The notes under the pieces: model-generated
The model's input: the letters and a program-made list of their open reading frames with translations, nothing else
Database searches by the model: none
What the model was told of the DNA's origin: nothing
Assembly: GCF_003144115.1 (NCBI RefSeq)
Contig: NW_020312003.1
Span: forward strand, 670,267-734,266
From: Tilletiopsis washingtonensis
Lineage: Eukaryota > Basidiomycota > Exobasidiomycetes > Entylomatales
Reading direction: 5' to 3'
Length of the DNA stretch: 64,000 bases
Position numbers and translations under genes: made by a program
Shown here: positions 31,045 to 58,013 of the stretch, in pieces
Position numbering within the stretch: the stretch's first letter is position 1
Layout of the letters: each line of letters starts with the position of its first letter

Positions 31045-33844
31045 GCTGCAAGCGCAAGTGGGGAGACGGTGTGCTGGTTAAAGGGACAGCAAGAGATGGA
31101 GCAGGTAACAACTTCCACATGTGGAATGTCAATACAGAGAGCTTCTGCAGGCTGGACAGTATCTTGTGGCACTCAGCAATGTTGTTGTGGCTGCCCTGTA
31201 GGCATCCAACCAGGGTGCTGTTGAGGAAGGCTTGTTTGGAAGAGAGAAGCTGGGTTAGGGTGATTTAGGGAGAGATCACAGGAGGAGGGGCAGTGGGGGC
31301 AGGTGCAGCAGGTGCAGAAGGGTACTGCCTTGCCGCACAGTTTGCACTCATGCGCATGGATCAGTGTGCAGCTGTAAGCCAGCCACTTGCTGCAGCGCAG
31401 AGCAAAGAGAGGTGAACTGCATGGGACAAGCCACACATGCTCTCTCTTGAGTGGAACACAAGTTGGTAAAGGGCAAGGGGTAGGAGTCATGTAATGCAAA
31501 GCACTGCAACTTGCTGCTGCTCTCCTTGTCCATGTTTGACATGCCGTCAGGAGGTGCTGGCCAGCTGTGCACATGATTGATGCGCACAAGACAAACTGCA
31601 GCTGTTGGGGCAACTGCTCTTCTGCAGCTTTTGAGCAAGTAGAAGAGAGGAAGGTAGAAGGCAGCATACAGGCCCTCCTGCAAACAGAGGATGTGCATGT
31701 AGGAGCTGGTCAACTGGTCAGACATCTATGTGCTGCAGCTGAGCAGAATGCCCTCCATGCCCTTCAGGTTGGAGCGGAGCTGTGTAGCAAGATATGGCTG
31801 CTATGTCCCCTCTCACTACTTGAAGGGAGGAAGCAGCAGGTTGAAGCCTGCATCAAGCACCCAACAAGGGCTGAGTGCCTGAAGCGGCACAGAAGGAGAT
31901 GCACATCATTGCAAAGAATAGACTGACCAGCCCATTGCAAAGCTGGCCAGGCTCAAGCTCAGCTGTGAGGTGCAGCCAGCAACTGAGCATGCGCAGCAGC
32001 ATGGTGATGCTGAAGCTGGCCTGCTTGAGGCTGCCTTTGCAGATGAAGAGGGGCAGAAGCATTGCCTGGTGAGTGACTGCAATGACAAGAGCAACAAGGT
32101 TCTTGTGCACAGTCTCTGCTGCCTGCACAGAGGCAGCAAACGCTGTTCCATACCACCAGGTCTAGACACAGGTGCAGGGTGTCCTACTTCAACACAAGTA
32201 TAGCACCTGTAGGGAGCTCTGTTCTCTGGTGCGTGAGGGCGCTTGGGAGGGGTGAATACAGAGACCTGAGAAGACAGGCTATCTGCTGGCTGTGTCATAT
32301 CTACCCTCTGCTTCCAGGCAGCTAAGCAATTGGCCTGATGGCCAGGCACATCCAACTTTGCCTCCTTGCCTCCTCTTGACTACGCCACTGGTGAGAGGAT
32401 CTACTACCCTGGCCTTTTCTTTCTGATGTTCAGCGCCAAGATTGATCCGCTGTGCTTTGACAACCTCAGCAAGATAGACTGTGGGTCAATGTTGGAGGAA
32501 TGAGTGTCCAGCTGATTCAAGTGATGGCAGCTGCAGCGCTGCAGGCCATCACTGACACTTCTTGTGCACAAGGCTGGATTGTTCTTGACCTCTCTCTTTG
32601 CACCTTCTCTGCATCACAACTGACCAAGGACAAAATCAAGATTGTGCGCTGCTGGCAGCTAGCCAATGGCAGACTTCAAGCACCTCTGCTTCAAATCTTT
32701 CTTTTACCTTTCTTACACAAGCTACTGGTGCAGGATGGATGGCTCAGCGCAAAATTGCTTGCCTCAAGCAGGAGAAGCAGGAGTAGGCATTGTTGTTATG
32801 GCTTGGCAGCTTCTGGACCTCCTCCTGATTGTCAGTCTTCTTGCTGTTGCGCCACATCTGCCTAGCTACTTACTGCGTCTCTTCAAGCTTGTCTCCTCAG
32901 CATTATGGCACATGCCCATGCCACGCCCACACCCACGTCTGCGCCAACACTGTAAGCTCAATATCATCATGTTCAACAAGATTGCCAATGTTGTCATTCT
33001 TCTGTGCTACCAGCCTCACTGCTTGCATCTCCACTGTTCTAAAGAGCAGTCCAATGCTCAAACCCTGGGACTTCCCAAGCGCAGAGCTGCCTAGCAGTCT
33101 CCTGCGCTTGTAAAGCAAGCTTCAGGCTGTAGACTTTCATGCCAAGCTTGCCCTTACGCTCAGGCACATGCAACTTTGCTTCCTCTTGACTATGTTTACT
33201 TCTGGCATGGGTGCAGAAACTTGCGCACCCAAATAGCAGGCAAGAAGCTTGTGGTTGCCGTTGCTGTGGTTGTTGTTGCTGTTGGGGATGCAAGGCAGGC
33301 CAAATAGCTGAGCAAAACCCGCAGGTGTGTCAAACAGCGGGTGGATGCCGTACAGACCTACAGACATGAAAGTAGTGGAGGCGCTGGAGCTGCTTGACTG
33401 GGCAGAACTTGTAGAGCATTGCACGCAGGCCTGGTCTCCTAGCAACTGCAGACCAAAAAAGGGCAGCATGATCACAGACTGGGAGCAGCGCCAGAGCATC
33501 TCAGGCAGCATTGCAGAATGCTGAGGACATGTGCAAGGGAGGCCACAATGTGTGCAGCAGTCACAAGGCCGCTACAGCATGCTGCTACTGGTGGCTGTGC
33601 TGCTGCATTGCACTCATTGGATGCAACAGGCATCACATACCTGCATCATCAAGAAGAGGCAGAGAAGATGGTGTGAAGCAGTCTGTGGGTAGGCGGCCAG
33701 CAGGTGCCAGCACTTTGTCCTGCATCAAGAGTGCCTGACATTAGAGCTCTGAAACTGCATGCATTCAGTGCGCCTGCAGGAGGAGGTGTGTGGCACTTGA
33801 TTGCTTCAATAGACATGTTGGTCTGAGGTCTGCATCACTCAGAT
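31045..33844. other. Decayed sequence with weak Gag-knuckle-like fossil
   Basis: About 2.8 kb with only short ORFs on both strands and very few CpG. On the minus strand at about 32161-32213 the reading CYTCVEVGHPAP resembles a CCHC zinc-knuckle of a retroelement Gag, in a decayed state. No LTR or other part can be tied to it. The rest shows nothing I can name. Confidence 0.3.
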
Positions 33845-34946
33845 GTGAGCCTGTACATGGCTGGCAGATCAGGCTGCACACCTGCAGCTGCACTGGCAAG
33901 ATTGGCTGGGGACAGGCTGCTTGAAGGGGCTCTCAAGGCAACTGCTGCAATCAAGGTGGCACCCTCAACGTTGGCCGCCCTGGGGCTTGCAGCGAGCAAG
34001 GGCAGGGACATCTTTGGCCCAGCTCAAAACACTGGCAAGGCAGGTGCGGTGCATATGTCAGGGCTCACACAAGCGTGTAGCCTCATCAGCTGCATCCTTG
34101 GAACAGTATGCTGCGCTGCAGCCGTAGTAGACTCAATGCCAGCACCTTCTGGCACTGCCCTAGCCCCTGCATCAAACAACAACACTGCAACCAATGCTGC
34201 AGCTGTCAAGATCTTGGCCATTCATGCCGTGCTGCTCCTTCTGCACATCACTATGGCCCTGGCACTTAGTGTACCATGGTGCAATGCCACTCTGGCAGTT
34301 ATACATGCTCTGTGGCGCCGTGTGACCTCCTCAAACACATTCCTGTATGTCTGGCACATCAATTTGCTTGGAAACCTTGAAGGCCTGACAGTGTGCCTGA
34401 GCCTCTATGATGCTGGCTGGCGCGCAGGAGGCTTGTATGCCTGCCAAGGCTCCTGCGCTGACAGGGCATGCAGCACGCACAAGTGCCATGCAGAGGATGC
34501 GCTGTGCCCTCCTACCTCATCCCCATCCCTGCCCCCTCCCAATGCATTGTTGGGGCAAGGTAGCTGCTGCTGCTGCAGCACTCAGCCATTACAGCCACAG
34601 AATCCTCATGAGTCAGCTTGCCAGCATGACCCCAGCTGAGGTCAAGCATGAGCAGGCTTGGATCAGTGAGCGCAAAAAGCTTGTCAACAACATGCTGGAG
34701 GCACCATGCAAGCATCATGTTGACATGCACTGCACGCAGAAGGCCTTCCACAGCTACTTCTGCACCATCAAAGGCCGCTTGCTGCAGACACACTTGCACC
34801 TCATCAACAAGCGGCATCTTGCAATGCTCATGACCAGTTACCTGCACTGGTGTGTCAAACATGCCAAGGGCTGTGGCAACAGCTCCACTGGCGCCTGGCG
34901 CTTTGGACAGATCTGCATGCAGCTCAAAGAGTACATCATTGAGTGA
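33845..34946 (+). pseudogene. Two overlapping unrecognised ORF remnants
   Basis: An open stretch at 33845-34639 (264 codons) is Ala/Leu-rich with hydrophobic segments (VKILAIHAVLLLLHITMALA). A second at 34407-34946 (179 codons), in another frame, looks more like real protein at its end: EVKHEQAWISERKKLVNNML, LINKRHLAMLMTSYLHWCVK and QICMQLKEYIIE. Neither has a recognisable domain, a clear start or flanking signals, and both lie in TCG-depleted sequence. I treat them as remnants of an unknown element or gene, not as active genes. Confidence 0.3.
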
Positions 34947-36103
34947 GAGCAAGCCAGCCAGGGGGTTGACTTGCGCACACTTGGCACTAGGAGCTATGAA
35001 GAAATTTTCTTGCAGCCAAGATTCCAGGAGCATGGCTGGCATCACATCTGGGGGTGACGTCAGGCAGGGCATGCAGACAGAGTGACCCCAGGCCACCTAC
35101 CCTTGGGCCACATCCACTTTTGGGTTCTCCAGGCAGCAGCAGGCAAAGGCGCTGAATACGCTCCTCTGGATTGTAGGCACCTGGCTTTTTCTCCCACTTG
35201 CGCTCCTGCACTTGCAGGTCAATGGCCATGCACAAACCCTTGTCCTCCTGCGCAGCCAAGTCACCTGCCATGCCCTGGCCCTGGTTGTTGTTGGAGTACA
35301 CCGGCGCCAGCAAGGACAAGCGCATGGCCCCAACGGGCAATGACGCCGTGAGCAGCACAGCTCAGCCAGCATTGCAGGGACAAGGGCCGTGCAGGGCTGG
35401 CGGGTGCACTGTGCACTGTGCAGAGTGCATCCTGGTGCTGGGCAAGGGATACTGCCATGATGCTGGCAGTAAGGCTTGAGTGTGGTGTGGTGGCAGGAGG
35501 AGCCCTGCAAGCGCGCCACTGCAGGCCTGGGTGCGGCTACGCGTGCGCAGGTGCATGACAGCAACTTGCAGCGCCTCCTGCGCCGCAGGTTGCCTCTTAG
35601 GCCAGGACCTGCGCGGTGCAGAGCCTCCCTTCCCACCACCACCACCCAAATTACCCCTGCGGCATTGCCCCTCAACAGCCCCTCCACCCTTCTGCTACAG
35701 CCACTCCTCCCTCTGCCAGCATGTTGCCGCCATCTGCCGGTGCACCTGCCTGCTTGGAGCCCGCCATCTTGCCATTGCTGTTAGCTGACCCGCCTGCCAG
35801 CTGTCTTTCAGACCCTATCCATGTGCTGGGCTCACAGATGGACCAGCTGCGCAGCTTGTTGCCGGCACCGGCAGTGGCTCCATTGCCAGCACCTGGTCCG
35901 TCTGTCTGCCACGGCCGCGCTCACTGCAAGACGCAACGCAGCAATCTGCCCACCAAGGCAGCAGCACCCAAGCAGGCCCGCACCAGCTGCTGCGGCGTGC
36001 AAAACCAGCTGGCTCTTGTTGACAAGCGTGCCTGCGCACTCCTGCCCTCATTGGACCTAGCAGCGCCGTTGTCTGACACTCTGCAGCCCAGACTGGTGCC
36101 GCC
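34947..36103. other. Decayed sequence, Cys/Pro/Ala-rich frames
   Basis: About 1.1 kb of block sequence, somewhat richer in GCG and CCG words than its neighbours. ORFs of 80-200 codons lie on both strands over the same bases, none with a domain. Nothing else is visible. Confidence 0.3.
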
Positions 36104-37024
36104 TTGCCCCAGCGCCAAGGCAACGCGCAGCGTCACTGCTGCGGCATTGCGCAGCAGAGTTGGCATTGCGCAGCTTGCTGCTGGCGCGCGCCTGCGTTGC
36201 AGTTCTGCCTGGCACAGCCGCAGCGCCCAGCACTGCTGGTCTGTCTGCCGCTGCGTCTGCCAGCAGAGCGGCAGCTGGCCCCATTGTGCTCAACACGGTG
36301 CACACAAGGGTGTTCTCCACACAGGCAACACCACCACTTTCATGATTGCCCTCTGGCACCACAACGGCAGCAATGTCCAGCTCTTCCAGTGCCGCATTCA
36401 TTGCTCCCAGCTCATAAGCAAGAACACCGGTTTGGGCTGCACACAAAGAGCAATGGCAAGATATCCAAGTCAAGCATGCAGCGCTCCCTCTCCACCAAGG
36501 CTTGCTCTGCCGTCCTTGCTGCGCTTGTTGCCATGCAGAACCCGCCAACCATTCTTGGCTTTGCCGCCATTGTTGCCCCAGCGGACCTTGAGCGCATCCT
36601 GCTTGATGTTGGCCTGGTAAAAGCAGTGCCAGTGGGTCCAGTGCCTGCTGTGAGCGGTGCCAGCCCAGCAGCACCGCCAGCAGCGCTTGCAAATGCTCCC
36701 ATGGGCCACTACCAGCAGCTGCAGCTTGAACGCATCAACATGCTTGAGGCGCAGCGCAAGGCTCTGCTGCAGCTCCCCAATGGTGTTGTCACGCTGTACT
36801 ACGCTGGCAGCACAACGTGCAGCGCCGCTCTGCGTGCACACAGCAACTGTAGAGCCGCTGCTTGCACCGCAAAGAAGGACAAGAGCGCAACACAGACGGT
36901 CAAGGGATTCTATGCTGCTGGAAGCACTGATGACCGGCTTGTTGCGCTGCCCCTTGTTGCCAACAACAGCTTTGGCGTGCACCTCCTCAATTGCATTGCC
37001 ACCTGCTTCATGCTGATAGGTTGA
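36104..37024 (+). pseudogene. Unrecognised 306-codon ORF remnant
   Basis: Open for 306 codons. The second half is protein-like, with NPPTILGFAAIVAPADLERI, a Pro/Ala linker, MGHYQQLQLERINMLEAQRK (helical, possible coiled coil), then LPNGVVTLYYAGS and KDKSATQTVKGFYAAGSTDD. The opposite strand is also open here for about 200 codons and also looks protein-like (YELGAMNAALEELDIAAVVV), so even the coding strand is uncertain. No family is recognised. The start is not defined. Confidence 0.3.
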
Positions 37025-37966
37025 TGCCTCAATGCTAAGGAGGGAGGGAACTTTGTTGCCCATTGCCATGCACACTATCCGCCAAGCCCCAACCTCCTGC
37101 AGTTGCTGCCAGCTGGGACCAACTCACGCACTGTTTGTCTTGTTGTTGTCATGGAGGACAGTGATGCCAAGTATGGATGTGCTGCTCTGCGCTCAAATGT
37201 CTCAAGATCAAGCGCTGAGGGCTTCCCAATGTCCACAACTGGTGCGTCTTTGTGAAGGACGCTCCCAGCAACATAGGATACATGCAGAGCAAGGTTCAGC
37301 ACGTAGGAGCGCACTATGCTTGACTTCTGAAGCGCACAGCAGACTGGTGGGACAGGAATGGCAAAATTGGCTACTGTATGATGCCACACAAAGTGGCAGC
37401 CTATGAGCTGTAAGCTACAGGCTTCCAGGCAGGCTGATGTAGAGGAAGATGCTCTACAGCGTGGGATGTGTTGGCAGGGCAGCAATCAAAGCTTGACACT
37501 GTTCACTGCAGATGATGTGGGGCTGTTAGTCATGAGTGCCTGCAGGGGGTCAGCGCAAGCAGGTGAATGTCATTGGTGGCCACACTCACCTGGATTTGCA
37601 GCAGCCCAAGCAGACCAAGCAGTGCAAGACAAAGCAAGTCTGTGTGGTGGTAGACTGTCCAAAAGATGGAGTCCCACCAGTCCAGAGGCAGGAAGAGCCA
37701 GTTGGGCAGCTGCTTAGAATCAAACATGGCCTTGTACGTGTTGCTGACAAGGGAGACCTCAATTGCAAGACTGGGTGCATATGCTGGCTGGATGGGAGGC
37801 TGCTCTGCAGCGGCTGCCTGCTGCTTGACAGTCTGCATGTTGAGATTGGCCATGCTGGCGGCATTGTGGCACAGGCGGCGCGGCACAGCGTTGAGGATGG
37901 ACAGACAAGACGCTGTACCTGCGCCAATGACAGATGGAGGTGTCAGACTTGCAAAAGAGAAAGGAG
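37025..37966. other. Decayed sequence before the minisatellite
   Basis: About 940 bp of block sequence with short ORFs on both strands and no domain. The minus-strand frame that reads through the minisatellite begins here. Nothing else is seen. Confidence 0.3.
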
Positions 37967-38215
37967 GGCTGGCGCACAAGAAGAGATGGCCGCACCTGCA
38001 CCAATAATGGAGACAACACGCGTGATGGTGCAGGGCTGGCGCATGAGAAGAGATGGCTGCACCTGCGCAAATGACAGAGACAACACGCGTGATGGTGCAG
38101 GGCTGGCGCACAAGAAGAGATGACCGTGCCTGCGTTGACAAAGCGCGTGATGGTGCAGGGCTGTTGCACAAGGAGAGACGACCGCACCTGCGCCAACAAA
38201 GCGCGTGATGGTGGT
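37967..38215. repeat. Minisatellite with 67-bp unit, about four copies
   Basis: Units start at 37967, 38034, 38101 and 38159, each opening GGCTGGCGCAC or a close variant and ending GCGTGATGGTGCAG. The first three steps are 67, 67 and 58 bp. Further partial matches continue to about 38245. In the minus strand one frame reads repeated PCTITRVVS and CAGAAISS words. The unit keeps GCGC and CGCG sites. Confidence 0.8.
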
Positions 38216-38638
38216 GGAGAAGAGAAGAGGAAGTAGAGCTGGCACGCAGGATGAGATTGCTGCGCCGCAGGTGGCGGAGATTGGCTGGCGCGCGAGAGCA
38301 ACGCTCCTGTGCAAGCGGGCAATTTTCCCACAGGGTTGCTTGGATGGCCGCCAAAACCAAGCAACGTCACGTGACCAAAAGGCGAGCGGGCTGCAATTTT
38401 GTCACGTGCCAGCCGCCGCACGGGCGCGCGCGCAGGCGCCTGCACCTGTTGCCCGGCGCCGCGCCGCCTGCTCCTGCTTCTCTACCACATCACCCCTGCG
38501 CGCAACTTGTTGCGCCCGGCACGCTTCTCTATCACATATACTACACCTCCAACTGTCACGTGGCGTGCAGCGCGCAGCACAGGTGAGCAGGGCCGTCCTG
38601 CCCTCCCTTCCCCCCTGAGGTGTGATCACCGCTGACTC
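38216..38638. promoter_or_regulatory. CpG-retaining segment with three CACGTG boxes, promoter-like
   Basis: This short part is far richer in CpG than the surrounding block (CGCGCGCGC at about 38430). It carries three palindromic CACGTG E-boxes at 38368-38373, 38403-38408 and 38557-38562, each as GTCACGTG. A TATA-like CATATACTAC lies at about 38535. Such boxes bind bHLH factors (Cbf1, Pho4, USF-like). It sits between the minisatellite and the plus-strand remnant that begins near 38639, for which it may be the old promoter. Confidence 0.4.
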
Positions 38639-39506
38639 AAGGCAGCCCAGCCCTGCAATGTCTTTGCTTTGCGCAGTGCAGGACAAGCTGGAAGCCAGCA
38701 AGCCGCTGCCCAACCCGCTGCCGCACTGCCTGCTCATCCAGCCTGCGGGCAACAAGTATGCTGCCCTTGTCTTTGCATGCAAGGACCTGTGCACAATGTG
38801 CTTTGTCTCCTGCCCATCTGCTGTCCTCACTGCGTTAGGCATTGGGCTCAAGGTCAACACCGCATGGGCCAGTGCCTATGTCGCAGGCTACAAGGGGCGC
38901 TGCAGCTTTGCACCTTGCTCCAAGCCCAATACAGACTCTGCCTGGCCCAGCCAAAGGGGAGGGGGAAGCAGAAGAAGAAGAGCAAAGAAGCGCCTGGAGC
39001 GCCCTCTGAAGGGCCATCAAGCGCTTCAAAGATGCCTGGGAAGAGCAGGGGCAAACTTGGGTTCACAGCAGAGCATATGCAGGGAGAACAAGCTTCCCCT
39101 GCCTTCTTGAAGTGGGCCTACATGGACTTGCTTGAGCACCTTGTCACTGTGGTCAAGTTCTTACACCCTCTTGTGAGGAAGGAACTTGAGAAGTTACCAC
39201 TCACCAATCATCCTGCTCAATTGTATGTTACAGGCAGGGGCACAACTCTGCAGGCATTGCCTGAGTGGCTGTGTGTTACACAAACCCAGCAATTGCCACA
39301 TGCAGAGGTCAGCGCCTGCTGCACTTGCCTCTGTGGCAGTAGCAGCAGATTGACATGCTCAGGCAAAGCAAGGGTGCCATTGTGAAGCTGTTTGATAATG
39401 CTGTCCTGCCCAATGTGCCTCTCCAGCATAAGTTGAGCTCACACGGCAGCTGAAGCAAAGGAAGGATGCCTTTGCAGCTCTGCGCAGAGAGACACATCAC
39501 ACTGAG
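38639..39506 (+). pseudogene. Plus-strand remnant upstream of the dioxygenase-like ORF
   Basis: Overlapping open frames with protein-like pieces in the same direction: VVKFLHPLVRKELEKLPLTN, QLYVTGRGTTLQALPEW, then QIDMLRQSKGAIVKLFDNAV. A Lys/Glu-rich run (KGRGKQKKKSKEAP) lies near 38970. Spacing and strand suggest the same ancestral gene as the ORF at 39507-39944. No family is recognised from this part alone. Confidence 0.3.
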
Positions 39507-39944
39507 GTGCTCTGCAAAGGCTCCAATTTTGCTGCTACTGTGCAAGGCTATGCAACTGGACCACATGACAACATGCACAACTACTGCCTCACCATCCTTC
39601 TCAAGGTTGGCAAGATACTCTTCATACTGCAGACACATATCTGCAAGCCAAATAAAGACAACTGCATTGGCATCTCTGGAGCAGAAATGTGCATGTACAT
39701 AGGGCCTGGCCACATCCTCTTCTTTGATTCATGTCTCTATCACTGCACAAATGCTTCTCAACTCCCTGCTGGCAGCAGAATGCTGCTGGGCAGCATCCTA
39801 CTTGATGCACAGCTTCTTCACCAACACTGCTGCACTGAGGTCCAACTGTGTGGAGTTTGGTGGCAGTCATGTCTGCAGCACTTTGGCAAAGATGCTGTCT
39901 TGGTTCTTCCTCTGCTGGCCATAGCTCAGCGTGCCTGTGAGTAA
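39507..39944 (+). pseudogene. Possible 2OG-Fe(II) dioxygenase-like remnant
   Basis: A 145-codon open frame with a pattern resembling the double-stranded beta-helix of 2-oxoglutarate/iron dioxygenases: VQGYATGPHDNMHNYCLTI offers an HxD-like pair, then LLKVGKILFILQTH, CIGISGAEMCMYIGPGHILF, FFDSCLYHCTNAS with a possible distal His, and GSRMLLGSILL with a possible 2OG-binding Arg. In basidiomycetes TET/JBP-type members of this superfamily travel with DNA transposons. The match is by eye only and no start or full domain can be set. It lies in TCG-depleted sequence and is unlikely to be active. Confidence 0.3.
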
Positions 39945-42387
39945 GAGTGCAGCAAGGTTGTGTCTTCCTGACTCAGGCCAACATGGAGCACTTGCATCAT
40001 GGGCCTGCGCGCAGCGCAGAATAGCTGTGTGCGTGGCATGCAACGTGGGTCAAAGGAAGCCAATCTGTGCAGAGAGTTGATCTTGTTGTTGATGTGCAGC
40101 ATCAGTGCAGTTTCCACCCTGTAGAAGCGCACTTAGACCTGGTTGATTGTCTTGGGTGACAGCTGCAGCACACTTCCAGGCACAAAGAGCTTGCTGCTGT
40201 TGCTGTTGACAAGCTGTTTGTACCAGAGCACAGGGTTGTACCACAACCAGCCCTGGCTGCCCTGGCGCCTCCTGCAGCGCTTGCGCCTGGCAGTGGCAGT
40301 ACTAATGGCAAAGCGGCTTGTGCATTGTCCAGGACGCCGCCTGAGAAGAGCATCAGGGTGGCTCATAGGAATGTGGCTGCAGCCAGGCCCTGCACTGACT
40401 CAACTGGCAGGTGCATTGGCTACTCTGACTCTTGGGAAGCCTGCTTGAGCATTTCTACCACATGGGATATCCAAGGCTAGCAGGCGCCACTATCCTGCTG
40501 TCTGCAAATCAGAAAGCAAGCAGCTTGCTCAGAAATGTGGGCAGTGATGCACATGCCTGCCAAGCAGCCGGTGCGCACCCACCTGCACGCTCATGACCCT
40601 GGCATAATTCAAAGGCCTTGATGTTCACGCATTCCTTGTAGTTGTTGCAGCCCATTGCAGTCTTTGCAGCCTTGCACTCCTTGCAGCACCTGATACTGCA
40701 TGCAAGCAGGCTCCCAATCCAGGGGCGGTAGTCTTGAGCGCTTAAGCACACAGGGTGCCGCCTTGCAGCATGGTAGCGCCTCACCCACATGTGCCTGTTC
40801 TGGCAGGCTCAATGATTAGGCTTGGCAGCAATGCTGTTGTTTTGTCACATGTCTTGAGCTGGGGCAGGGCTACAAAGCCGTCCTGAGGACCAGAGATTGG
40901 CAGAAATGTGCCTCTTTGCCTTGGCAGAGTGGCCAAAGCCAGGACACACAACGGGATAAGCGCAATGGGACAGATTCTGCAGACTCTGCAGCTGTTCAGC
41001 CCAGGAGGTTTGCACTCCTGACATGGGAGAACAGACGCTGCTAGTCCCTACAACTGGCTTATCCCCTTCTGGAGTAACAGGTGGACCCATAGAGAAGGAA
41101 GAGCAACGGCGCTTGCATTGCCTTTGAAGCATGAGGACCCTCTGCCTCTGACCCTGCAAGAGCAGGTCAGAACTGTAGAGGTGACAGGCAATCTCTCCCT
41201 GCTGTACACAACATGCGTCAGCATTGTGTCCCAAGTCATAGTCTGCAATGCAGTCAGAAATCACTTCCAGTTTGGCATTCTGCAAGACCAGCTGAAGCTG
41301 AAGGACCTCCTGGCTTTGGCAGGTTGGTGGGTGAAGCTTGCAAGCATTGCCAATTTAGATGCATAGTGGGAACCAGGCAACAAGGTGAAGCGCAAGGAGA
41401 CTGTTGCCAGACCAGCGCCACCCAACACACCTGGCTTTGACTTCAGCTACAGCTTGGATGAGGAAGAAGCAGACATGCTGTCTGTTTTGAGCGCAAGTTA
41501 GGTTATTCTTGCTTAAGTGAGTGCACTGCAAAGACCAACACCGCACAACTGCGCTGATGTGTTGCAGTGTAAGACGTTGACATGCTGCTGCCAGAAGTCC
41601 AGGGCATGCAGATTGTGCTTGTCTAGATGGGCATGCAGCTCAATGACAGCAGTGAGTGGTAGTTTCAGCCTGATGTAAGGCTTGCAGGCCCACACAAGCA
41701 AAGTGTCAGTCTTCTTTGTCAACAAGCTTGGAGCCATCTACAAGACCTTTGCGGATATCTGCTGGCAAGAGGAATTATTGCTGGCCATGCCATCAACTTT
41801 ATTGATGCTGTTGTGGGCATGCAGTATTTGTGTACTCTGGTGTCAATGCATGGGTCCTTGTTCACCATATTCTGAGTCTAAATTTTATTGAGCTTGCTGC
41901 ACAGGGGCGCACAAAATTTGAGGTGCGCAACGCCAAAGACAGGACCCTTGCCGGCGCAGCCAACCATTGGGCCCCAGCGCAAGGGAGTGTAGGTGCCACT
42001 TGCCAGGATGAACTGCTGCTGCGCCATGCGACCTGAGGCAATGATGAAGGTTGGGCAGATTGCCTGGATCACCTTGCGCAGCATGGCATGCGCCGTGCGT
42101 GAGACAGGAGACATTGGAGCCGGAGGAGGGCAGCAAGTTCCCTCATGTTCACGGCCAGAATTTTGAGACTGGCCTGCACCGCATGGAAGTGAGGGCAACC
42201 ACAGATGCAGCCACGGCAGCATCCACCAGACACATAAAGGGTGGGCATCAAGCTGCACTGCTTCTCCCATCTGTCTGCCCCACTCCTGCAGATCTCCCAC
42301 ACCTTGCGCGCTACGCTCAGACCTGTCTTGCAGGTCTTGGTCTTGATGCCTTTCATGATCTCAAAAACAGGTTGTCTTGTACACAGA
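39945..42387. other. Decayed sequence without recognisable element
   Basis: About 2.4 kb of block sequence. ORFs are below 150 codons on both strands, with no domain or repeat that I can name. Confidence 0.3.
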
Positions 42388-42582: not shown

Positions 42583-42686
42583 ATGATGTCTGAAGTGCAG
42601 CAGGAGGGAGCAAGCTTGAGAGGCAAGACAAGAGGCTGTAGGTGGCAAAGCTGTGCAGGAGCGCCTTGGCTGAGAGAGAGAACACG

Positions 42687-42688
<2 letters not shown>

Positions 42689-42722
<34 letters not shown>
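42689..42722. repeat. AG dinucleotide microsatellite
   Basis: Seventeen AG units directly beside the truncated end of the copia fossil. Confidence 0.9.
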
Positions 42723-42723
<1 letters not shown>

Positions 42724-42744
42724 AGGTCCCAAACGTTGGCAGAG

Positions 42745-47599: not shown

Positions 47600-48420
47600 T
47601 CCAGCTGCTTTGCGCTGCTCTTGCCAGCTGCTTTGCGCTGCCACATATGTTGTCTGACTCCACCTGTGCCGCCTTGTCCCTTAGATGACCTTGCTCATTC
47701 CCTTGTGCAAGGAGCTGGTGGTCCTTGCCAAGCTCAGCGCCAAGAACTGCTCCAGATGGATCAAGGCACTGACGCAAGATTGCTGCGCGCGCTACAATGT
47801 GCTTCTTGCAAAGGCCTGCCCAATGGCCAACCAGGACCACGGCACTGTGGCTTGTGTGCTTCTCTGCGGCAACTTTAACGCTCTGGACGGCAAGGGCGTC
47901 TAGGGCTGATCTTTCCTCCTGTATTGCTCTCTCTTGTAACCATTGAAACAAAGGTTTGATTGCCGCCTTGAGCGCTGTGGGTTGAGCTCCTTGTTGGTGC
48001 TGCTGCGGCTGCTGCTGGCTGCATACACCTGCGCCACAGTGTGCCAGCGCAGCTCTGCCTTGCTCTGATGCACAAGCAGAGCATTGACAACAAGCTAGGA
48101 CAGGTGCGGCAGCAAGGCCTTCCCACGCAGCTCTTGCTGCAGAGCATTGCACAGCGCATTTGGCAGCCGCTTGTCCTTGCCAACCTCATCCATGGGTGGT
48201 GGGTTGGTGCAGGGCAGTATCCTTCACGCGCTCAACACCTTGCTGAGCAAAACAAGGCATGTGACCAACTGCACATGGGCCAGAAGATCAGCAACAACAC
48301 CAAGCTGTGCAAGCACCATAAGCAGCTGCAGGCCAAGGTCAACAACTGCCAGTGCACATTGCTGAGGCAGTTGTTGCAGCTGGCTACTGAGGCCAACACA
48401 GGCTGAAGAAGGAGAGAGAA
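47600..48420 (+). pseudogene. Unrecognised coding remnant, possible coiled coil
   Basis: Two plus-strand open stretches, 47685-47903 and 48041-48406, look protein-like: LIPLCKELVVLAKLSAKNCS, then KLGQVRQQGLPTQLLLQSIA and NTKLCKHHKQLQAKVNN, the last with helical Leu/Lys/Gln spacing. The minus strand is also open here (47481-48152). No family, start or splice signal is recognised. Confidence 0.25.
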
Positions 48421-49184
48421 AGAAGCTTGTGCAATGCAGCGTCTTTTTGCCTCATGCCTTACCTCCAGCGTCTCTGTTGCAGTGACTGTCCCAGCTGAGG
48501 GACTCTGCTTGCGCTGCACTGCCCTTGCCAGCACCTGCGTGGTTGCACATACGCCTCCTCACTGCCTTCACGCTCAAACAAGCCATTGCCAACTCCAAGA
48601 GCACGCACATGCACATGCTGTGGTAGCGCATTGTGGCTACATACAGGGACACTGCAGAAGAGACCAATGAGTTCCTTGAGTGCTGTCCACGGCTGCAGGA
48701 CAGTGAGCAGGTGCTGCTCATTCAACCATGCGCGTTTGTCAATACCCAGTGTTGCCTGCTGCTGCAGCTCAATGCACAGCTGCAGAGCGCCAGAGAGTAA
48801 GCAATCCTGCCAGACTGGAGCTCCCTCCCCCTTTTGCTCACACATCATCTGCAGCAAGCTGACAGTGCTGAGAGACAAATGTGCCAGCAGCAGACCAGCA
48901 GAGCAGGGCAGGGCATTGAGGTGCAACATCCTGCAGGGAAGCACAGGGACAATGCATAATGCCAGTTGCAACAAGGTTGGCATGGTGAGCAAGGCAATGT
49001 GGTGGTGGTGACAAGCGCCAGTGCTGCAGCAACCAGTGCTTGGGCAAGCAGGGGGCAAGTCTTGTGCGCCGCAGCGGCTGCCCATGCGCACCAAGCAGGC
49101 AGCCCACCAGTCTTGCTTCTGCCTGGGCCAGGCTCTAGCGGCTCCAAGGTGAGATGCAGGTTGGTGCAGTGGCCTTAGAGCACT
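48421..49184. other. Decayed sequence without recognisable element
   Basis: About 760 bp of block sequence. A 261-codon minus-strand ORF (48459-49244) is Leu/Cys/His-rich and not family-like. Nothing else is supported. Confidence 0.25.
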
Positions 49185-49949
49185 GTGCAGCGCCAGGCCC
49201 TCTTCTTGCCTCCACCCCTGCACATCTGGCATGCTACCGCACATTCAGCACATTGGCACCTGCGCCCTGTCTGCTGCTGCTTAGCCAAGGTGGATGCACC
49301 ACATGTTGGCAACAAGAACTTGGACACCTGCACTCCTCTTGCTTCCTGCTCTTGTTGCTCTCCTTGCTCTCCTTGCTCTCCTCTTGCTCCCCCTGCTGCT
49401 CTTGCTCCTCATGCTCCTTCTCTCACTGGCAACACCACAATGGTCTCAGCCACTGGTTATGGCGGCAATGTCTCAATGGTTCTGATTGGCTCTGCATCTG
49501 CCTCACTACCTGTTGATACCAACCTTGATCCACTTGACAAACTCAATGACTGGCTTGGCAGCATGACAAACAGCATCAGCCTCAGCTGTACACATGTGCA
49601 GGCCAGCAAGCCAAAGACACCAAAGCCTGTGCTGATGCCCAAGGGCAAAGGCAAGGGCAAGGGCAAGGGCAGGTTTAAGGCAACATTGCCAAAGTTGAGG
49701 CTGATGTTGTCAAGGGTGGCCAAGGTGTTCAAGGGGATTGCACAGCTCAGTGAATCACAGTACAGAAGCAACTCAGCCTCATTGGCTGACTGCTCAACTG
49801 AGGCCAGCAACAACAAGGCCAGCAACAAGGCCAGCAACAACAAGGAGGACACAGGCAATGCAGGCTGCTTGCCCCCAAGTACCTCACAGAATGCAAGAAC
49901 CTGCAAATTGCCAAGCGTCTCATCCTCAACATGGCTGGCGCAACAATAG
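49185..49949 (+). pseudogene. ORF remnant with GK and NNKAS repeats
   Basis: Open for 254 codons. A Ser/Pro/Leu-rich first part overlies a CTC/CTTG-rich low-complexity run (49330-49425). The second half contains NLDPLDKLNDWLGSMTNSIS, a hexanucleotide AAGGGC repeat (49640-49675, encoding GKGKGKGKGR), a Lys/Leu helix (KLRLMLSRVAKVFKGIAQLS) and an ASNNK tandem repeat (49800-49850). No family is recognised. The basic repeat could be nucleic-acid binding, which is inference. Confidence 0.3.
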
Positions 49950-51079
49950 CCGGTCTCAATGTGCTTGCATTGGACAGCATTGGACCTTGCTGCGCACTGC
50001 TGCTGAGTCAGGGCGCTGCCTGTTGCATGTACATGTCAACATAGAGCAACATGGCTGTAACAGGTGAGTTTGAGTTGCAGGAGAAAGAGAGAGCCAGAGA
50101 GAGAGAGAGAAAAGAGAGAGGCTTGGCTATCTGTGCTGACCTGATCTGTGGCAGGCATGTATGTTTTTGCCAGCACCTGAAAATGTGAGTCAGAGAGTAC
50201 TTACAGCATCCTGGCAAGGGCACATATGCCAAAGATGTCAAGGACCTCCTACCAATGAAGCAAGCAAGAGACTGCTACAGCAAGCAGCATCTCCAACAGC
50301 TTGGCCTTCCTCTCACACTTGCACTCTGTCAATGTGGCAGGGCAGCTGTGTTTTGCGCAGGCAGCGCAGCAGTTGGCTCTGTAGCTTGGCCAAACATGAA
50401 AAGTCTGCAGGCGGCAGAGCAGTGTGCTGCTTGGTGCGTCAGGCACACAGTGTTGGCACTTGAGCGGCCAGCATACAGCACCAGCACCCAGTACGCAGTG
50501 CGGCCAAAGGGCGGGTGCCAAATGTGCGCACGCGCAACACTGGTCTGCTGCCTGCAGACTTGCAATGCTGCCATCTCCCTGCTGCACACAGCATGCAGCG
50601 GCGCGCTGCTGCCCAGGCGCCATTGCGCAACTGCTGCAGACTGGCAGCATGCCAGACCGCATGCCAAGCGGCAGGGCGTGAGAGTGGCAGCTGCAGCAGC
50701 TGCAGGAGTTGAGCAAGCGGCACGCATGCATGGGCATACTGCCAGCACACAGGAAGGCTGTGCAGCGCTGTGCAGACTATCTGCCAAGTGCATGCGCGCA
50801 GGCAGTGCAGCACAGCGCGTGTGCAGGGCCCAGCTCCATTGCATGTCATGCAGCTTCCTTCTTCTCCTCTGGCAAGGCCAACTGCTCTGCAGCCTCTTGC
50901 ACAACGTTTTATTCCACCTTAGGGCAACCTCTGGTGTCCCCCCTAGCTGGGTGGGGCAAGGCAAGTGGAGAAAACCTCTGGGCCATGGCCCTGTAGTGCA
51001 AAGGTGACCTACACTATGGTGCTGGGATTCTGAGCCTCCTCACTCTGCATTGCGCTTCAGCGTGGCACAAAGTTGTGCC
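49950..51079. other. Decayed sequence, low-complexity GA stretch
   Basis: About 1.1 kb. A GAGA-rich run lies at 50090-50125. ORFs of 250 (+) and 211 (-) codons overlap over the same bases, both Cys/Ala-rich without domain. Nothing further is seen. Confidence 0.25.
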
Positions 51080-51553
51080 TCACTTGCGGCCCCTGCGCTC
51101 TGAGCGCAGCAACATGGCGTGTTGCCCATTGGGGCGCTGCGCAAGCAGCAACAAGACAAGACAGGCGCAAGCCAGACAGTGCGTGCAGCGCCTGAAACTG
51201 TCCTTGACACGCCTCAACAGGTCCTCAAAGCGCCACTCTGTGCCGGCGCCAGGATTGGCACCCTGGCCATTCCACAGCTTGACCCATGCTTTGAGGCCCT
51301 TCCTTGTGACTGGCAAATGCGGCAGGATCTCAACAACAGGGCGCGCGGGCTCCTGCGCCTTGAACGCATATTCACAGCGCCTGTGGCCAACATGGAGAAC
51401 AACAGAGCTGCGCAGGCTGTGAGCCTCCTTGTTCCAGTACAGTAGCCAGCCGCTTCTGCACACAACAATGCTGCCAGGCTGAGCAGAGAGGCTTGCCTTG
51501 ATGCTGCCTTTGTAGCCCAAGCCTTGCTTGCGCTTGTAGCTGCCAGCGCGCAC
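51080..51553 (-). pseudogene. Unrecognised minus-strand remnant of protein-like character
   Basis: A 157-codon open frame reading like an ordinary protein: SYKRKQGLGYKGSIKASLSA, SIVVCRSGWLLYWNKEAHSL, ARPVVEILPHLPVTRKGLKA and EWRFEDLLRRVKDSFRRC. The mix of charged, aromatic and hydrophobic residues is unlike the Cys/Ala-rich shadow frames around it. No family is recognised, and no start, intron or neighbour clarifies it. Confidence 0.3.
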
Positions 51554-52573
51554 GCACAGCGGCCCTCCATCAAATCCTTTCTTGTTGATGGCATAGGGGA
51601 TGACAAGTCAGACCATTGGGTCAGCCTTGTTGCGGTCAACATCCGGCTGCAGACAGACGCTGTAGAGGCCACAGAAGCAGGTGCTGCACTTGTTTGGCCT
51701 GTTGATGACAAGCAAGGCAAACAGGTAGGAGAAAAAAGACCTGTGCTTGACAATGTAGCAAGATTTGTCAAGTAGAATCTTGCCATTGCGCACCCACTCT
51801 GCGCGCAGCTTGTCCTTGCAGAAGGACTAGGTGTAGCCTACAAGACTGACCAGGCTGTCAGACCCTACACCATCACAGCTATGTTCACAGTAGACTCAGT
51901 GACTGCCAGAAGTACAGCAAAGCAGTCTGGCAGCAAGGCAGGGCCATGACAGCCAGAATTGCAGAGCAGCAGTGCACTAGGTGCATCAAAGGTATGCTAA
52001 GTAGCTGAAGACATGGACCAGTGCCAAGGACAGATGTGGCACAGGTTTTGTCCCCATTTGCCATTTCCTTGCAGCATTTAATTCTGGCTGTGTCCTGACT
52101 CATTGGGGCTGGAACTGGGACAATGCTGTGCTTGTGCGCAACCTCAACAAGCTGTGGCCTGAGTACCCCTTCTCACAGACAGCATTGATCAACAATTCAA
52201 CCGTGGTCTACCTGCATCAGCTTGCGCTTTGTCTGTTTAGCATCTTCAAGGCGCTTTCCAATGCCTATCTGGCAGAGACAACTTGGAACTCAATGCAGCT
52301 GTGTTGCTGCAATGCAGCACTACTCATCAATGCCTGACAGTGGTTAGGCTCCACATGTCCTGTCTTGCGCGGTCCCTCTAACAAGGGCCTCTATATGTCT
52401 TGGCTATTGCCATGCACTCTTGCATCTGCTCCTTCATACGCCAGCATTGCCAGGCCCATTGAGATGAACCAGGGCTGTCTGCAGGTCACGCCCAAGACTT
52501 TCAAGTTGACACGCCTTGCCTACAGCTGATCCACATCATTCTCCTCAAGACACGCTCCTCTGCACTGCCTAGA
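51554..52573. other. Decayed sequence without recognisable element
   Basis: About 1 kb with short plus-strand pieces such as SFLVDGIGDDKSDHWVSLVA (51524-51775) but no domain, repeat or signal. Confidence 0.25.
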
Positions 52574-53680
52574 GTGAATTGGTGGATGAGTGCCTGCCTG
52601 AATGGCATGCCAACCTTGCTGAAGGTCAAGTGCCTTCTGGCCTGCTGGCAAGAGGCGTACAGCTGCAAGGAGCAGCACTGCCGCCCACTGCCTGTGCACT
52701 GGCCAGTTGTTGGAGGCAAGGCAACATGCTATGTGCTCAACCATGCATTGCAGTCTCCACTCTGCACAGAAGAAGAATTCCGCCAGCTGCAGGCGCGCAT
52801 CCTGGCACTCCTGCGCTTTGCCAACATTGTTGTCTTCTTCAATCCCTGCTTGACCCGCCACCCTGTGTTCAATCCAGCCTTTGCCCCTCCACAGCATCTT
52901 GCCATTGCTCAGCTCCTGGCGCACCTGTTCACCAGATTTGCGCAGCCAGCAGCACCAGCCTGTCTGGGGGACAAGGGAACCAGCTCCAGCAGCACCTACC
53001 CGGCAGTCCTGGAGATCAAAGAGCTCCTTGCACCTCTGGGACAGCTGGGCCCCTGCGCCAAAGACCATGTTCAGCTGCTGCTGCATCTTCTGCTCCTCAA
53101 TTGATGGGCAGCGCCAGCGCCTTGAGTCAGCAGCCATGGGCTGGCACTTGGAGCAATGAACTCTGCTGGATTTGTCAACGCTCTGGCTTGCGTCACTAGA
53201 GCCAGCTGCAATGCTCCCAGGATATGGGTGCTACTTGTCTGCAGCGCCAATCCCATGCACGCCAATGCACACGCAGTGCTGATAGCAGCAGAGGTAGACT
53301 GGCTGGAAGGGCTCCAGCTACTTGCTGGGCATGTCAATGGCCTGGCCCTGGCCCGCCCAATGTGCCATGCAGTGCACAAATGGCTGGCCTTGCGCAACAT
53401 GGCTGCCGGGTTCTACAACATGCTGGAGGCAACATCAGCCGGTGGTGGTGCCGTCAACAGCACCAGCACAGCTGGCAAACAGGCCTCTGGCGCCTCTTTC
53501 ACCAACAACAATGCCTTGGCTCTCCAGGGCAGCGCCAGCAAGGCGTCAATGCCCCGCCTGCATCCTGCGCTCAACAGGCAGCTTCTCTGTGACGCAGTTG
53601 ACCAGGGCGCCTTTGGGGTTGCCACTTGGCTGGGCAACCAGGGCATTGTGCTGCACAAGAGCCCCTGCAAAGTCTTATAG
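52574..53680 (+). pseudogene. Two consecutive unrecognised plus-strand ORF remnants
   Basis: 52574-53104 (176 codons) contains LLKVKCLLACWQEAYSCKEQ, SPLCTEEEFRQLQARILALL and FANIVVFFNPCLTRHPVFNP. 53156-53680 (174 codons) contains EVDWLEGLQLLAGHVNGLAL, AVHKWLALRNMAAGFYNMLE and FGVATWLGNQGIVL. Both look more protein-like than the overlapping minus-strand frame (52520-53137). They may come from one ancestral gene. No family is recognised. Confidence 0.3.
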
Positions 53681-55437
53681 GCGCATGCAGCCATCAAGGC
53701 AAGCAGGAAGGTACTGCATACCCAGGAACTTCAGTCCTCCTGCATCATTGCTCACTTGCATGCGCAAGGCATTGTCCTTCAGACTCTTTGCGCTTGCATT
53801 GGCTTTTGCCATCCTGATGCGCACCTCAAGTTCTCTGTTGAGGACAGGCACCACACAATGGCAAGGGAGGCTGGCTGACGGTGGCAACAGCGGTAGCGCA
53901 GCCATTGGCGCAGACATTGCGCCTGTGACAGCCAAGGGGTACAACGCAAAAGACGGCATGCCAGTCAAGGTCAACAGAGTGGTGTTGCAAGTGGCCACAG
54001 CTGCTGTTGCCAAGGACACACTGCTGCTGACAGCTTCCTCCGTGTGCGCTGACATTGCCTCTAGTGTCTTTTGCAGACTAGTGAGACAAGTCATGACCTG
54101 ATTGTTGTGCTTGTGTCTCCACAGCTCACACCCATTCAGCAGGTATGCAGCGGGTGTTTGAAGCAACCCGGAAGTGCATCTTTTAGCGCAGCAGACCCTC
54201 AATGTGCCGCACTTAGAGGTCAGGATGTGCCCTAGACAAATGCCTTTTCACAAGGCTCTGATATGTTGCATTTTTACTGCCATTCAACTGTTACCAAGGT
54301 GTGCCCATCAAGCGCGCTCTGCAGCATCCATGAAGGGGCACATAGTAGTGAGAGAAGCCAATGCCCTGTGCATAAATGCATCTGTCTTTGTCCCTGGCTT
54401 GCACAGCCTTATTTGCAATCTGCCAGGCCTTGTATGACACAGCCTTGCCTAGGAGTGCGCCATAAAGCACCCAAGGGGCTTCATTGTTGGTGTATGTCAC
54501 CTCCTTGCTGCAGCCTGAGCTCTCTTTGCAGTACTGGATTGTGCTGGCAGCCAAGACTGCAAATGTGCTGCAGTGCTGCGTGGCAAGTACCCGCTACACA
54601 ATGTTGCACACCAACAGAGCCAAGATAGGCTTGTCAACTTACTTGAGCAGCAGCTGGAGGCCATACAGCCACTATGCCTGTACAGCTTTGCTGGCATCAA
54701 TGCATTGGATCTGTGCCGCGGGCAAGCAGCAGGCTAGCGCAGATGCAATGCTCTACATGACGGCTAAGTGCTGCCCTTTGTTGTATAGCAGCTTGTGCCA
54801 CACACTATTGCTGTTTTCTGCAAGACTTGTTTTCCACGGAGAATGCACATCTCAAGGCATCAGTGTTGATGATGATGCAGCTTTGGCTGAGCAGTGCTGT
54901 GGCGCAACCAAGTGCATGCACAACATTTGCCTATTCTTTGTTGAAGCAATAGATTACTTTTGTATTTCAACTGATGCGCCCACAATGCTTGCTGCAGCAC
55001 ATGCACAGGTGAGCACTGGCGCATGTAGCACAACAAGGCTGTTCATGCTCAGCGTGGCATTGCACATGTCTTCAGGCTTGGCTTACACAGCCCCTCTACA
55101 TAGAAGCAGCGCCACCCAACACTCTCTGCAGTGCAGAACAACGCTGCCAGCAGCAGCAGTAGCAGCAAGACTCTGGCCTTCACAGTGCTTGGCAGCAGGT
55201 TCAATGCCAGCAAGTACATGCGGTTGCCCTACTGATGCAGGAAGGCCTACAGCATTACCTAGCAGACACCAGGCAAGCATTTGGCAGAGGTTGTGCCCCA
55301 CAGCATGCACTGGTCTGAGTGTATGGCCAGCTGCAGCAGATCCAAGCCCATGCGCGTTGCTGCAGGCAATGCCATGATGCAAGCAGAGCAGGCTGCATGC
55401 AAGGCAAGCTACAGGTACAGCAGGCAATGCAAGAAAG

Positions 55438-55440
<3 letters not shown>
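53681..55440. other. Decayed sequence with overlapping ORFs on both strands
   Basis: A 175-codon minus-strand frame (53675-54202, with a Ser/Thr/Ala-rich middle) and a 297-codon plus-strand frame (54484-55377, Cys/Ala-rich) are open. Neither has a domain. The stretch leads into the GA microsatellite. Confidence 0.25.

Positions 55441-55504
<64 letters not shown>
55441..55504. repeat. GA dinucleotide microsatellite, 32 units
   Basis: Sixty-four bp of uninterrupted GA ending three bases before the LTR-like segment. A purine run in this position resembles an expanded polypurine tract beside a 3' LTR. Confidence 0.9.
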
Positions 55505-55507
<3 letters not shown>

Positions 55508-55856
55508 TGTCATGATCCGCACGGCAGACTACCTACAGAACCCTTTGGAACCCTGCGGAACTCCATGGGTCCTCAGAGAACCCTCTGGAACCCCATGGAA
55601 CCTCCTAGAACTCTACAGAACCTGACAGAAGCGTACGGAACTGTACAGAAGGTTACAGAACCTTACAGATCCGCCTGGAACATTCTACCAGGTTCCATCC
55701 GTTTCCACTACCTTCCATCCCCTTCCATGAGCTTCCCTCACGGAACACTGTAGAACCCGCGCTGCGTCTCCCCTGCTCTGCCCTCTAAGGTATATAAGGA
55801 GGGCCTCCCCCACCCCCACATGTAGATAGTCAGTTCTGATCTTGCATTGTCACACC
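55508..55856 (+). mobile_element. LTR-like segment (possible solo or 3' LTR fossil)
   Basis: About 349 bp opening TGTCATGATCCG and closing TTGTCACA, so with TG...CA ends. The first half is a chain of degenerate 10-12-bp GGAACC/AGAACC words. A TATA box (TATATAAGG) at about 55791 is followed by a C-rich leader, an order like U3-R-U5 of a retrotransposon LTR. A long GA purine tract precedes it. I find no second copy in the window and no internal region I can attach, so family and age are open; it may be a solo LTR. An ordinary promoter is the main alternative. Confidence 0.4.
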
Positions 55857-57459
55857 CTCCTCTCCGGCAAGGGTCTAGGTTCTTGACTAGGCTTCCAGAG
55901 CTTACTCAGATCCTGCGTGGCTGCCTGCCAGACTCCTGTTGCCTTCCTCCTGGGCCTTGCCCACGTGACAGACAGAGAGAGACAGAGGCTGGGTTTGAGG
56001 TGCACTGCAGATGGGAATGAGCAGATGAAGGAGGTTAGGGTGCAGACAGTGAAGGTGCAGCTACTGATAGCATGCTGCTTCAGTTGCTGCACAGCAGGGC
56101 TGGGACAGTGCATGTGTGTTGCAGAGCAAGCTTGGCATCCTCACAAAGGATGCCATCTAAGATTGCATCATTCATGCCAAGTCATCCTGGGGCAAGACAA
56201 GCTCCAGACGCATGTGCAACAAAGAACTGTAATGCCACGCTTGTGCAGCTGTGATGCAGCAGCTCATTGACCAGGGCCTGTACAGCAGCAGAGCCATTGA
56301 CAAGCTCTTTGTGGAGCCCTCTTATTCTGCTCTACAGCAGCAAGATCTCTGTGAGGAAGAAGTGCTAGCAATGTGCTTGCAACAGACAAGCAAGCTGCAT
56401 TGCACATTGTGGCGCACAACAAGGCAGACTGCCTCATTGCCTGCTTCTGCCCTTAGTTGCAGGGGGAAGAGTCAGCAAAGTTCTCTTTCAATGCCAACCT
56501 CCTGACGCACTAGCGTGATGCTCTGCATCCCGGCTGCTGGGTTGTCTGGCTGCTGCCAGTCACCCAAAAGCAGAAGCAGACAGCTCTGCTGCCTCCAGCA
56601 TACCAATGGCAGCATCTCTTCAATCAACCGCAGCTGCTTATTTTTCCAGCCACTCTTGTTGGGGCTTCTGTTGCTGATGGCAAGACCAACTATGGCAACT
56701 GCCTACCAGGCATTGGAGCAAGTGGCTGGGCAAAGACAGTGACTGCCTGCCAGGCCTTGCAGTCCATGCCAGCACAAAGCCTGGCCTCCTCTGGCAAGTC
56801 TTGCTTGGCATGGCAAGTAACAAAAGCGCAAACAACAACAATTGCATTGCCTGGCGGAGCATCAGGGGTAGGAGACTTACACCAGCAACCTGAGCCTGCC
56901 ATTCTTTGCAGCAGCTGGTAAGTTTGCTGAGCTTGCAGTTGTCATGGCTGTGTCAGACCTTGCCATGGTTGTGTCAGACATAGTCTTTCTGCCCTTGCCT
57001 GTCCTTGGAGTGCTTGCTGACTTGCCACAGGATCAACATGTCTGCACATCAAAGCTAGCAAGGCCATCAATGTTGTGACAGAACAGATGGCAGGTCTATA
57101 AACTGGACCATTTTCTGCTCTGCACTTGCTGCAGCATTCCTCACATACGGTGAGATGTGCTGTAGCTTTGTTGGCAGCACCTTCAAGGCTTTCTTTGCCA
57201 AAATTGTCCTGAAAAGCATAGATCTGGCTGCCCTAGAGTGTTGCAGTGGCATAAATTCCTGCTTATCATGCAACGGTGCAAACCATACGGCGTTCCAGCT
57301 CTACCAGTGCAGCAGCAAGGCCAAGCCGCGCAACAAACAGAGCAAGTGACTCAAGCAAATCCGCCAGCACCCGGCAGAGCTACTTGAGGCAATGCTGGAC
57401 AAGGCGCTGGCAATGGCTGTGCGCAACTGCGCCTCTCCTGCATTTGCCGCCGCGCCTGA
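55857..57459. other. Decayed sequence downstream of the LTR-like segment
   Basis: About 1.6 kb with ORFs below 120 codons on both strands. Plus-strand pieces near 57155-57350 (STFKAFFAKIVLKSIDLAAL, FQLYQCSSKAKPRNKQSK) look protein-like and lead toward the next remnant. No domain or repeat was identified. Confidence 0.25.
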
Positions 57460-58013
57460 TTGGTCATTGCAGCCATCTTCAAGGCATGGGACAACGTCAA
57501 CAGAGAGGCCAGTGTCAAAGAAGAAGCAGGCAACAAGTCTGCAGACAAGCACAGCCTTGTAGAGTTCAGCAATGAGGAAGGACTTGGCCTGCACCTTGGC
57601 CGCTGCAGCTTGCAGGCATATGGTGCTGTGTACTCAGACGTGCCAGGCAGCAAGTTAGAGGTGTACACTGCTGCTTGCTCTGCTGGAGGCAAGGCAGGTG
57701 CAGCCCCACACACAGCAGCAAAGGCAGCAGGCATGTTCAAGCCCAGGCCAGCAGAGAAGTGCACCCAAGCTGTGCACATCAACAAGTGCAAGAAGTGCGT
57801 GATTGGGAGCATAAGAAGGACAACAAAAGCGCTCAAGGCAAGGTGCGGTGGGCTGCCACAAAGGCAGCAAAGGAAGGAGAAGAGGAGGCATCATTGGCGC
57901 AATGTCAGATTCCGCTCACTGTCAAGCGCGCACGCAAGCCAGTGCGGTGCTGGGCAGCCAGCGCAGCTAGGACCCTTTGGGCAGCTCTGGCCTGCGCTGA
58001 CCACTACCTTTGA
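57460..58013 (+). pseudogene. Unrecognised plus-strand remnant at the right edge of the block
   Basis: Protein-like readings in overlapping plus frames: VIAAIFKAWDNVNREASVKE, SLVEFSNEEGLGLHLGRCSL, KLEVYTAACSAGGKAGAAPH, then EHKKDNKSAQGKVRWAATKA and PLTVKRARKPVRCW. The basic, Lys-rich end could be a nuclear or nucleic-acid-binding tail. The stretch stops almost exactly where host base use resumes (58014), so it may be the terminal gene of whatever element forms this edge. Confidence 0.3.

Follow-up and report, generated by a model that had tools for sequence, protein, structure and literature searches.

A 27-kb block in a Tilletiopsis washingtonensis contig has lost nearly all TCG, consistent with TpCpG RIP-like hypermutation

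Results

Extent and composition of the block

One block of about 27 kb is nearly devoid of TCG and CGA in a 64-kb stretch of the Tilletiopsis washingtonensis genome (contig NW_020312003.1, positions 670,267 to 734,266; hereafter the window), and it is probably a silent, gene-poor domain, at least partly derived from transposons, of a high-GC basidiomycete, scarred by TpCpG RIP-like hypermutation. The best order-3 Markov segmentation of the window returned this block as the single anomalous segment, with a log-likelihood ratio of 2910 nats (Table 1), and Viterbi decoding with two-state order-3 models of block and flank gave the same lone segment at both switch penalties used. Its limits lie a few bases from those of a preceding sequence-only reading (31,045 to 58,010), and the abrupt switch in base use described there was recovered at both ends, where it took no more than about 60 bases on the left side, and about 100 on the right, for support to fall by 5 nats. 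The GC content is 0.552 inside and 0.648 in the flanks, and the observed/expected ratio of CpG is about 0.33 (0.329) inside and 1.09 outside. In 1-kb windows this ratio ranged from 0.86 to 1.27 for those lying fully in the flanks and from 0.08 to 0.69 for those of 31,001 to 57,001; the corresponding counts of TCG on both strands were 37 to 76 and 0 to 5. The DNA of the flanking genes is thus spared in these window counts, and the same depletion in flanking host genes, which would have spoken against the earlier reading, was absent. A 7-mer shared by the edges at 31,005 and 57,996 was discarded as a target-site duplication, as a match of this length is at chance level for two windows of about 100 bases (reckoned by hand), and no inverted repeat was found between the left and right edges.

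Table 1 Positions of the block, its edges and the features placed in the window
Feature	Positions	Strand	Evidence
Hypermutated block	31047..58015	.	GC, CpG o/e, TCG near-absence, segmentation
Left edge	31001..31100	.	last flank TCG/CGA 31,041; next inside block 33,993
Right edge	57910..58070	.	first flanking TCG/CGA at 58,015
Short tandem array, 67- and 58-base units	37965..38213	.	in CpG-richest part of block
Copia-type reverse transcriptase relic (RVT_2, profile positions 21-130 of 244)	42872..43210	-	Pfam E 8.3e-24
Patch with 5 of the 14 surviving TCG/CGA sites	46509..46680	.	
Tripeptidyl-peptidase II gene (approximate limits)	14471..18296	+	Pfam TPPII E 3.7e-47; PDB 3lxu E 6e-46
Glycolipid transfer protein exon (GLTP)	22191..22679	-	Pfam E 2e-12
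CHY zinc-finger exon	27073..27840	+	Pfam E 3.1e-9
DUF726 exon, right flank	60829..61728	+	Pfam E 9.6e-18

Sequence context of cytosine loss

The block holds 14 TCG and CGA words, compared with 224.8 ± 13.8 (minimum 187) in 200 dinucleotide-preserving shuffles of its own sequence, with non-overlapping word counts in both. In the same shuffles ACG was at expectation (z −0.6), CCG slightly below (z −3.3) and GCG far above (z +14.2). TCG therefore stands out even when the CpG content of the block is taken into account, and its depletion is stronger than that of any other NCG context. The expected products are abundant, with TTG and CAA together at 1619 against 1297.6 ± 22.6, so that near-total loss over some 27 kb and the gain in TTG and CAA both held up. 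Comparison with the flank gave a less exclusive picture. Relative to the flank, the block's C/T odds before G were lowest with a preceding T (0.004), followed by C (0.124) and A (0.131), and highest with a preceding G (0.329), and ACG and CCG must therefore be counted as heavily hit as well. That these contexts and GCG are much less affected, as had been proposed, is correct against the block's own shuffles and incorrect for ACG and CCG against the flank (odds of 0.12 to 0.13); strict trinucleotide specificity is not supported. What stands is a TCG-led, Microbotryum-like C-to-T change at CpG over one continuous stretch, without the exclusive TCG target.

Since a CpG can disappear through a change on either strand, CpG contexts were regrouped by the 5' neighbor on both strands into ten strand-symmetric classes. 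A per-cytosine model with four parameters fitted these classes well (deviance 5.2, 6 df), with survival by 5' base of 0.62 for A, 0.54 for C and 0.028 for T when G is set to 1, and an overall factor of 0.573. Uniform CpG decay fitted far worse (likelihood ratio 676, 3 df). Given this fit and loss through either strand, part of the apparent loss of GCG is due to cytosines converted on the other strand. GCG itself may nevertheless be mildly affected, because GCGC, in which both strands carry G at the 5' position, stands at 0.59 of its flank density, compared with 0.84 for five non-CpG tetramers made of G and C only.

Cytosines not followed by G showed odds from 0.45 (TCT) to 1.58 (CCC), block versus flank. 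The odds of xCT words were 0.45 to 0.77, a drop that newly made xTTG words may explain in part, and those of xCA words 0.54 to 1.15, with TCA at 0.54 and the other three near 1. The observed/expected ratio of TpA was 0.403 in the block and 0.387 in the flank.

Across 26 windows of 1 kb, ACG and CCG together ranged from 5 to 45 while TCG stayed near 0. In seven of the eight windows richest in ACG and CCG no TCG was left, and the eighth had four. The two measures were uncorrelated (Spearman −0.09, p 0.67), a test with little power given how few TCG remain. The near-absence of TCG where ACG and CCG are richest, together with the lack of correlation, suggests a fast TCG step that was saturated almost everywhere and a slower loss at the other contexts.

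The RIP-like index devised for Microbotryum, coded after the formula in PMC10502011 with TCGA as overlap term where the passage concerned prints TGCA, was 17.7 for the block and −0.51 and −0.60 for the flanks; in 1-kb windows it ran from −0.76 to −0.27 in the flanks and from 0.2 to 39.8 in the block. TCG/CGA were thus lost, and TTG/CAA gained, to a greater degree than seen for the other CpG contexts, which is the feature by which TpCpG RIP-like hypermutation of Pucciniomycotina is recognized.

In silico mutation of the flank

Random C-to-T changes were introduced at CpG in the flanks, with the fitted factors scaled for the GC-rich background and one replicate per model. Flank mutated by the per-cytosine model resembled the block closely over the 64 trinucleotides (r 0.987), and the total variation of 0.047 was near the split-half noise of the block (0.031) and the left flank (0.038). 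The unmutated flank reached r 0.442, TCG-only change 0.821 and uniform decay 0.914. Because the fitted factors derive from the CpG counts of the block itself, agreement over the NCG words is a given, and the real test lies in the products (NTG and CAN) and the remaining trinucleotides. The simulated TpA ratio was 0.25 and the observed value of 0.40 exceeds it, so the per-cytosine model is incomplete. Read most simply, the block began as DNA with a host-like composition and was changed chiefly by a single C-to-T process directed at CpG.

Content of the block and of the flanks

Stop-to-stop frames of the block were scanned with Pfam, 121 of at least 100 aa and 148 of 60 to 99 aa. A convincing family was found for one of the 121, the transposon relic RVT_2, and for none of the 148. 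The interval starting at 42,601, which holds this copia relic, also gave the strongest 3-base periodicity in the block (13.5); values above 5 occurred in 4 of 43 block windows and 19 of 58 flank windows. The best reading is that the block is at least partly derived from transposons. For most of its length such an origin is unsupported, because only 1 of 121 and 0 of 148 frames match families of this kind.

That the affected sequence is not obviously repetitive was confirmed within the window. Apart from the short tandem array near 38 kb self-similarity is slight, and short tandem arrays are few. Between 30,500 and 58,600 no inverted-repeat pair was found at the lengths searched, the direct repeats included no LTR-like pair, and no terminal repeats of the block were found. 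Hits of the block against itself in tblastx were short, of low identity and based on summed statistics, and were set aside. Scans for tRNA genes and Rfam families gave no match. PDB searches with the block ORFs 35,601-36,617 and 42,872-43,210 gave none either, and a search of viral contigs with the reverse transcriptase relic yielded five pattern matches, none of them confirmed.

Several weaker family matches in the block were judged low-complexity or chance: Atrophin-1 (two members, best E 8.1e-7), PRP38_assoc (3.3e-4), TIGR00890 (4.5e-4), DUF3915 (6.3e-4), DUF5956 (0.0012), SAM_MT (0.0016), STAG (0.002), DNA_pol_E_B (0.0089) and DUF7923 (0.26), as well as DUF3915, MINAR1_N, DUF6628, Tenui_PVC2, DUF1304 and KATNA1_MIT (0.0068 to 0.033) among the frames of 60 to 99 aa. 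The ORF at 39,432-39,941, which looked oxygenase-like by eye, was dropped as it had no Pfam match even at E 10.

Long frames had been ascribed to changes that rarely make stop codons. This is true only in degree, because stops are more frequent inside the block (25.3 per 1000 trinucleotides) than in the left flank (18.3). Arginine made up 6.5% of residues in the 121 block frames of at least 100 aa and 13.9% in 96 flank frames of at least 150 aa, and Cys, Gln and Trp were higher in the block.

In the flanks, the Pfam scan covered the 96 of 221 stop-to-stop ORFs of at least 100 aa that reach 150 aa. The tripeptidyl-peptidase II gene sits in undepleted flank and has, by eye, at least seven introns of roughly 50 to 65 nt with GTGAGT-like donors and CTRAY-like branch sites, short introns of a pattern that we take to be fungal architecture. 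Its exon, searched against viral contigs, gave two pattern matches and no confirmed one. Further flank matches, which were not placed, include ICMT, PEMT, VMA21, Peptidase_S8 and others.

Discussion

The scar of the block is of a known fungal kind, and what distinguishes it is its unusual completeness and its sharp bounds. TpCpG RIP-like hypermutation of transposons in Microbotryum and other Pucciniomycotina is reportedly to be credited to Horns 2012 and Johnson 2010. The block has in common with these cases the C-to-T change at TCG on both strands in gene-poor, copia-bearing DNA (passages of PMC5381629 and PMC10502011) and a strongly positive value of the same RIP-like index (PMC10502011, same passages). 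The cases described in the passages of PMC5381629 are, however, partial mutations of transposon copies, with on average 1.7 of 35 target sites mutated per Gypsy-like copy, whereas here the loss is near total over 27 kb; moreover, most of the block is not recognizable as repeats within the window, and the remaining CpG contexts could be ranked. The bias is called conserved in Pucciniomycotina in that part of PMC5381629, and passages of a Rhizoctonia solani paper (PMC4014442) mention an earlier report of a bias specific to this group and expect a CpG, not a TpCpG, bias in an agaricomycete. High GC is also found in Pucciniomycotina, with 62-68% listed for Rhodotorula in a table of PMC9027234. Taken by themselves, introns, GC content and the mutation signature would place the host among the basidiomycetes, probably in Pucciniomycotina, an argument made partly circular by its use of the signature. 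A fungus-wide RIP survey from 2025 has in its main text none of the terms TCG, trinucleotide, Microbotryum, Microbotryomycetes, Pucciniomycotina and Ustilaginomycotina.

CpG-directed loss is likewise shared with the CpG-biased C-to-T change in basidiomycete transposons, although the relevant passages of PMC4352252 and PMC4469406 rank contexts by the 3' base, whereas in the block it is the 5' base that makes the strong difference, GCG being almost untouched. Neurospora-type RIP (RID/Masc1) also leaves a C-to-T scar in gene-poor, transposon-type DNA, but its CpA preference is missing from the block. As TpA is hardly above the flank, and three of the four xCA odds are near 1, we reject this type as the origin of the scar. 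The excess of TpA over the value simulated from CpG change alone runs counter to this rejection.

The most likely mechanism on our analysis would be methylation by a Masc2-class enzyme followed by conversion of TCG. It is favored because of the conserved TpCpG bias and of reports of Masc2 without RID, found in passages of PMC4352252 for the three basidiomycetes studied (Masc2-class Dnmt1 present, RID absent) and of PMC12730594 for Puccinia and Microbotryum (Masc2 in place of RID), next to that of PMC5381629. A CpG DNA methyltransferase, Masc2-class Dnmt1 in relatives, would mark the domain, presumably heterochromatin and perhaps a centromere. CpG cytosines would be picked by their 5' neighbor, T far above C and A, with G nearly spared; marked TCG would be converted quickly by a RIP-like step, C to T on both strands, until exhausted, and ACG and CCG would decay more slowly.

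The block may be a regional centromere and its scar a by-product of centromeric heterochromatin, which would refine, and overlaps with, the explanation by TpCpG RIP-like hypermutation; we regard this as quite possible, if short of an even chance. Here host genes enclose a lone gene-poor domain that carries a retroelement relic and, at 27 kb, has the tens of kilobases looked for in a regional centromere; a transposon island would have the same appearance, however. The regional centromeres of Cryptococcus deuterogattii, as presented in the abstract of PMC7188483, share the gene-poor domain and the transposon relic with the block. In Microbotryum, according to the passages of PMC10502011, centromeres are recognized by a described repeat; the block has only a few short tandem arrays. 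For red yeasts, the passages cited from PMC9027234, PMC7334043 and PMC7794384 describe no centromere, and that from PMC7334043 states that none has been verified as a replication element in R. toruloides.

A mutator aimed not at repeats but at a sharply bounded heterochromatic domain, perhaps a centromere, of mostly single-copy DNA, with a machinery that would read the 5' base (T, then A or C, sparing G) and convert TCG to exhaustion, appears rather unlikely to us. Less probable still is ordinary decay of methyl-CpG, that is, spontaneous deamination of 5mC in methylated heterochromatin without any special step at TCG. The strong reduction of ACG and CCG relative to the flank, ACG at its shuffle expectation within the block and the deficit of GCGC, by which GCG is perhaps mildly lost, would all fit such decay; its uniform form is rejected by the likelihood ratio and the poorer simulated spectrum given above, and TCG is near 0 at every level of ACG and CCG. 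Insertion of foreign DNA that brought a base use of its own would explain edges as sharp as about 100 bases but is very improbable, as host flank subjected to the fitted C-to-T process closely yields the block's spectrum, terminal repeats and a duplicated target site were not found, and no family other than the copia reverse transcriptase was convincing.

The numbers per 5' context and the fit of a model with independent strands constrain which enzyme acts. If the block is single-copy or centromeric, repeat induction as such would come into question, and the scar would offer an easy way to find silent domains in high-GC genomes of fungi from sequence. If targeting of the domain holds true, the scar would be a direct sequence read-out of the position of centromere or heterochromatin in this lineage.

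Surviving sites in the hypermutated block

Between 33,993 and 46,680, a C directly follows 11 of the 14 TCG words surviving in the block, the segment nearly devoid of TCG/CGA, and each such C places a GCG cytosine on the opposite strand. This agrees with the prediction of the per-strand model, in which cytosine survival depends on the 5' base. The two perfect (AG)n microsatellites listed below lack CpG and would therefore be spared by the proposed CpG-directed C-to-T process. In the undepleted host-gene DNA of the left flank, one of the longest stop-to-stop frames gave no Pfam match at E 0.01.

Microsatellites and long frame in the window
Feature	Position	Strand	Location
Perfect (AG)n microsatellite	42,689-42,722		block
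Perfect (AG)n microsatellite	55,440-55,504		block
Stop-to-stop frame, 477 codons	10,811-12,241	minus	left flank

A stretch of 170 bp (46,509-46,680) contains five of the 14 TCG/CGA sites left in the block, a clustering reached in none of 100,000 random placements, the cluster having been picked after it was seen. This patch may have been either protected or a later arrival.
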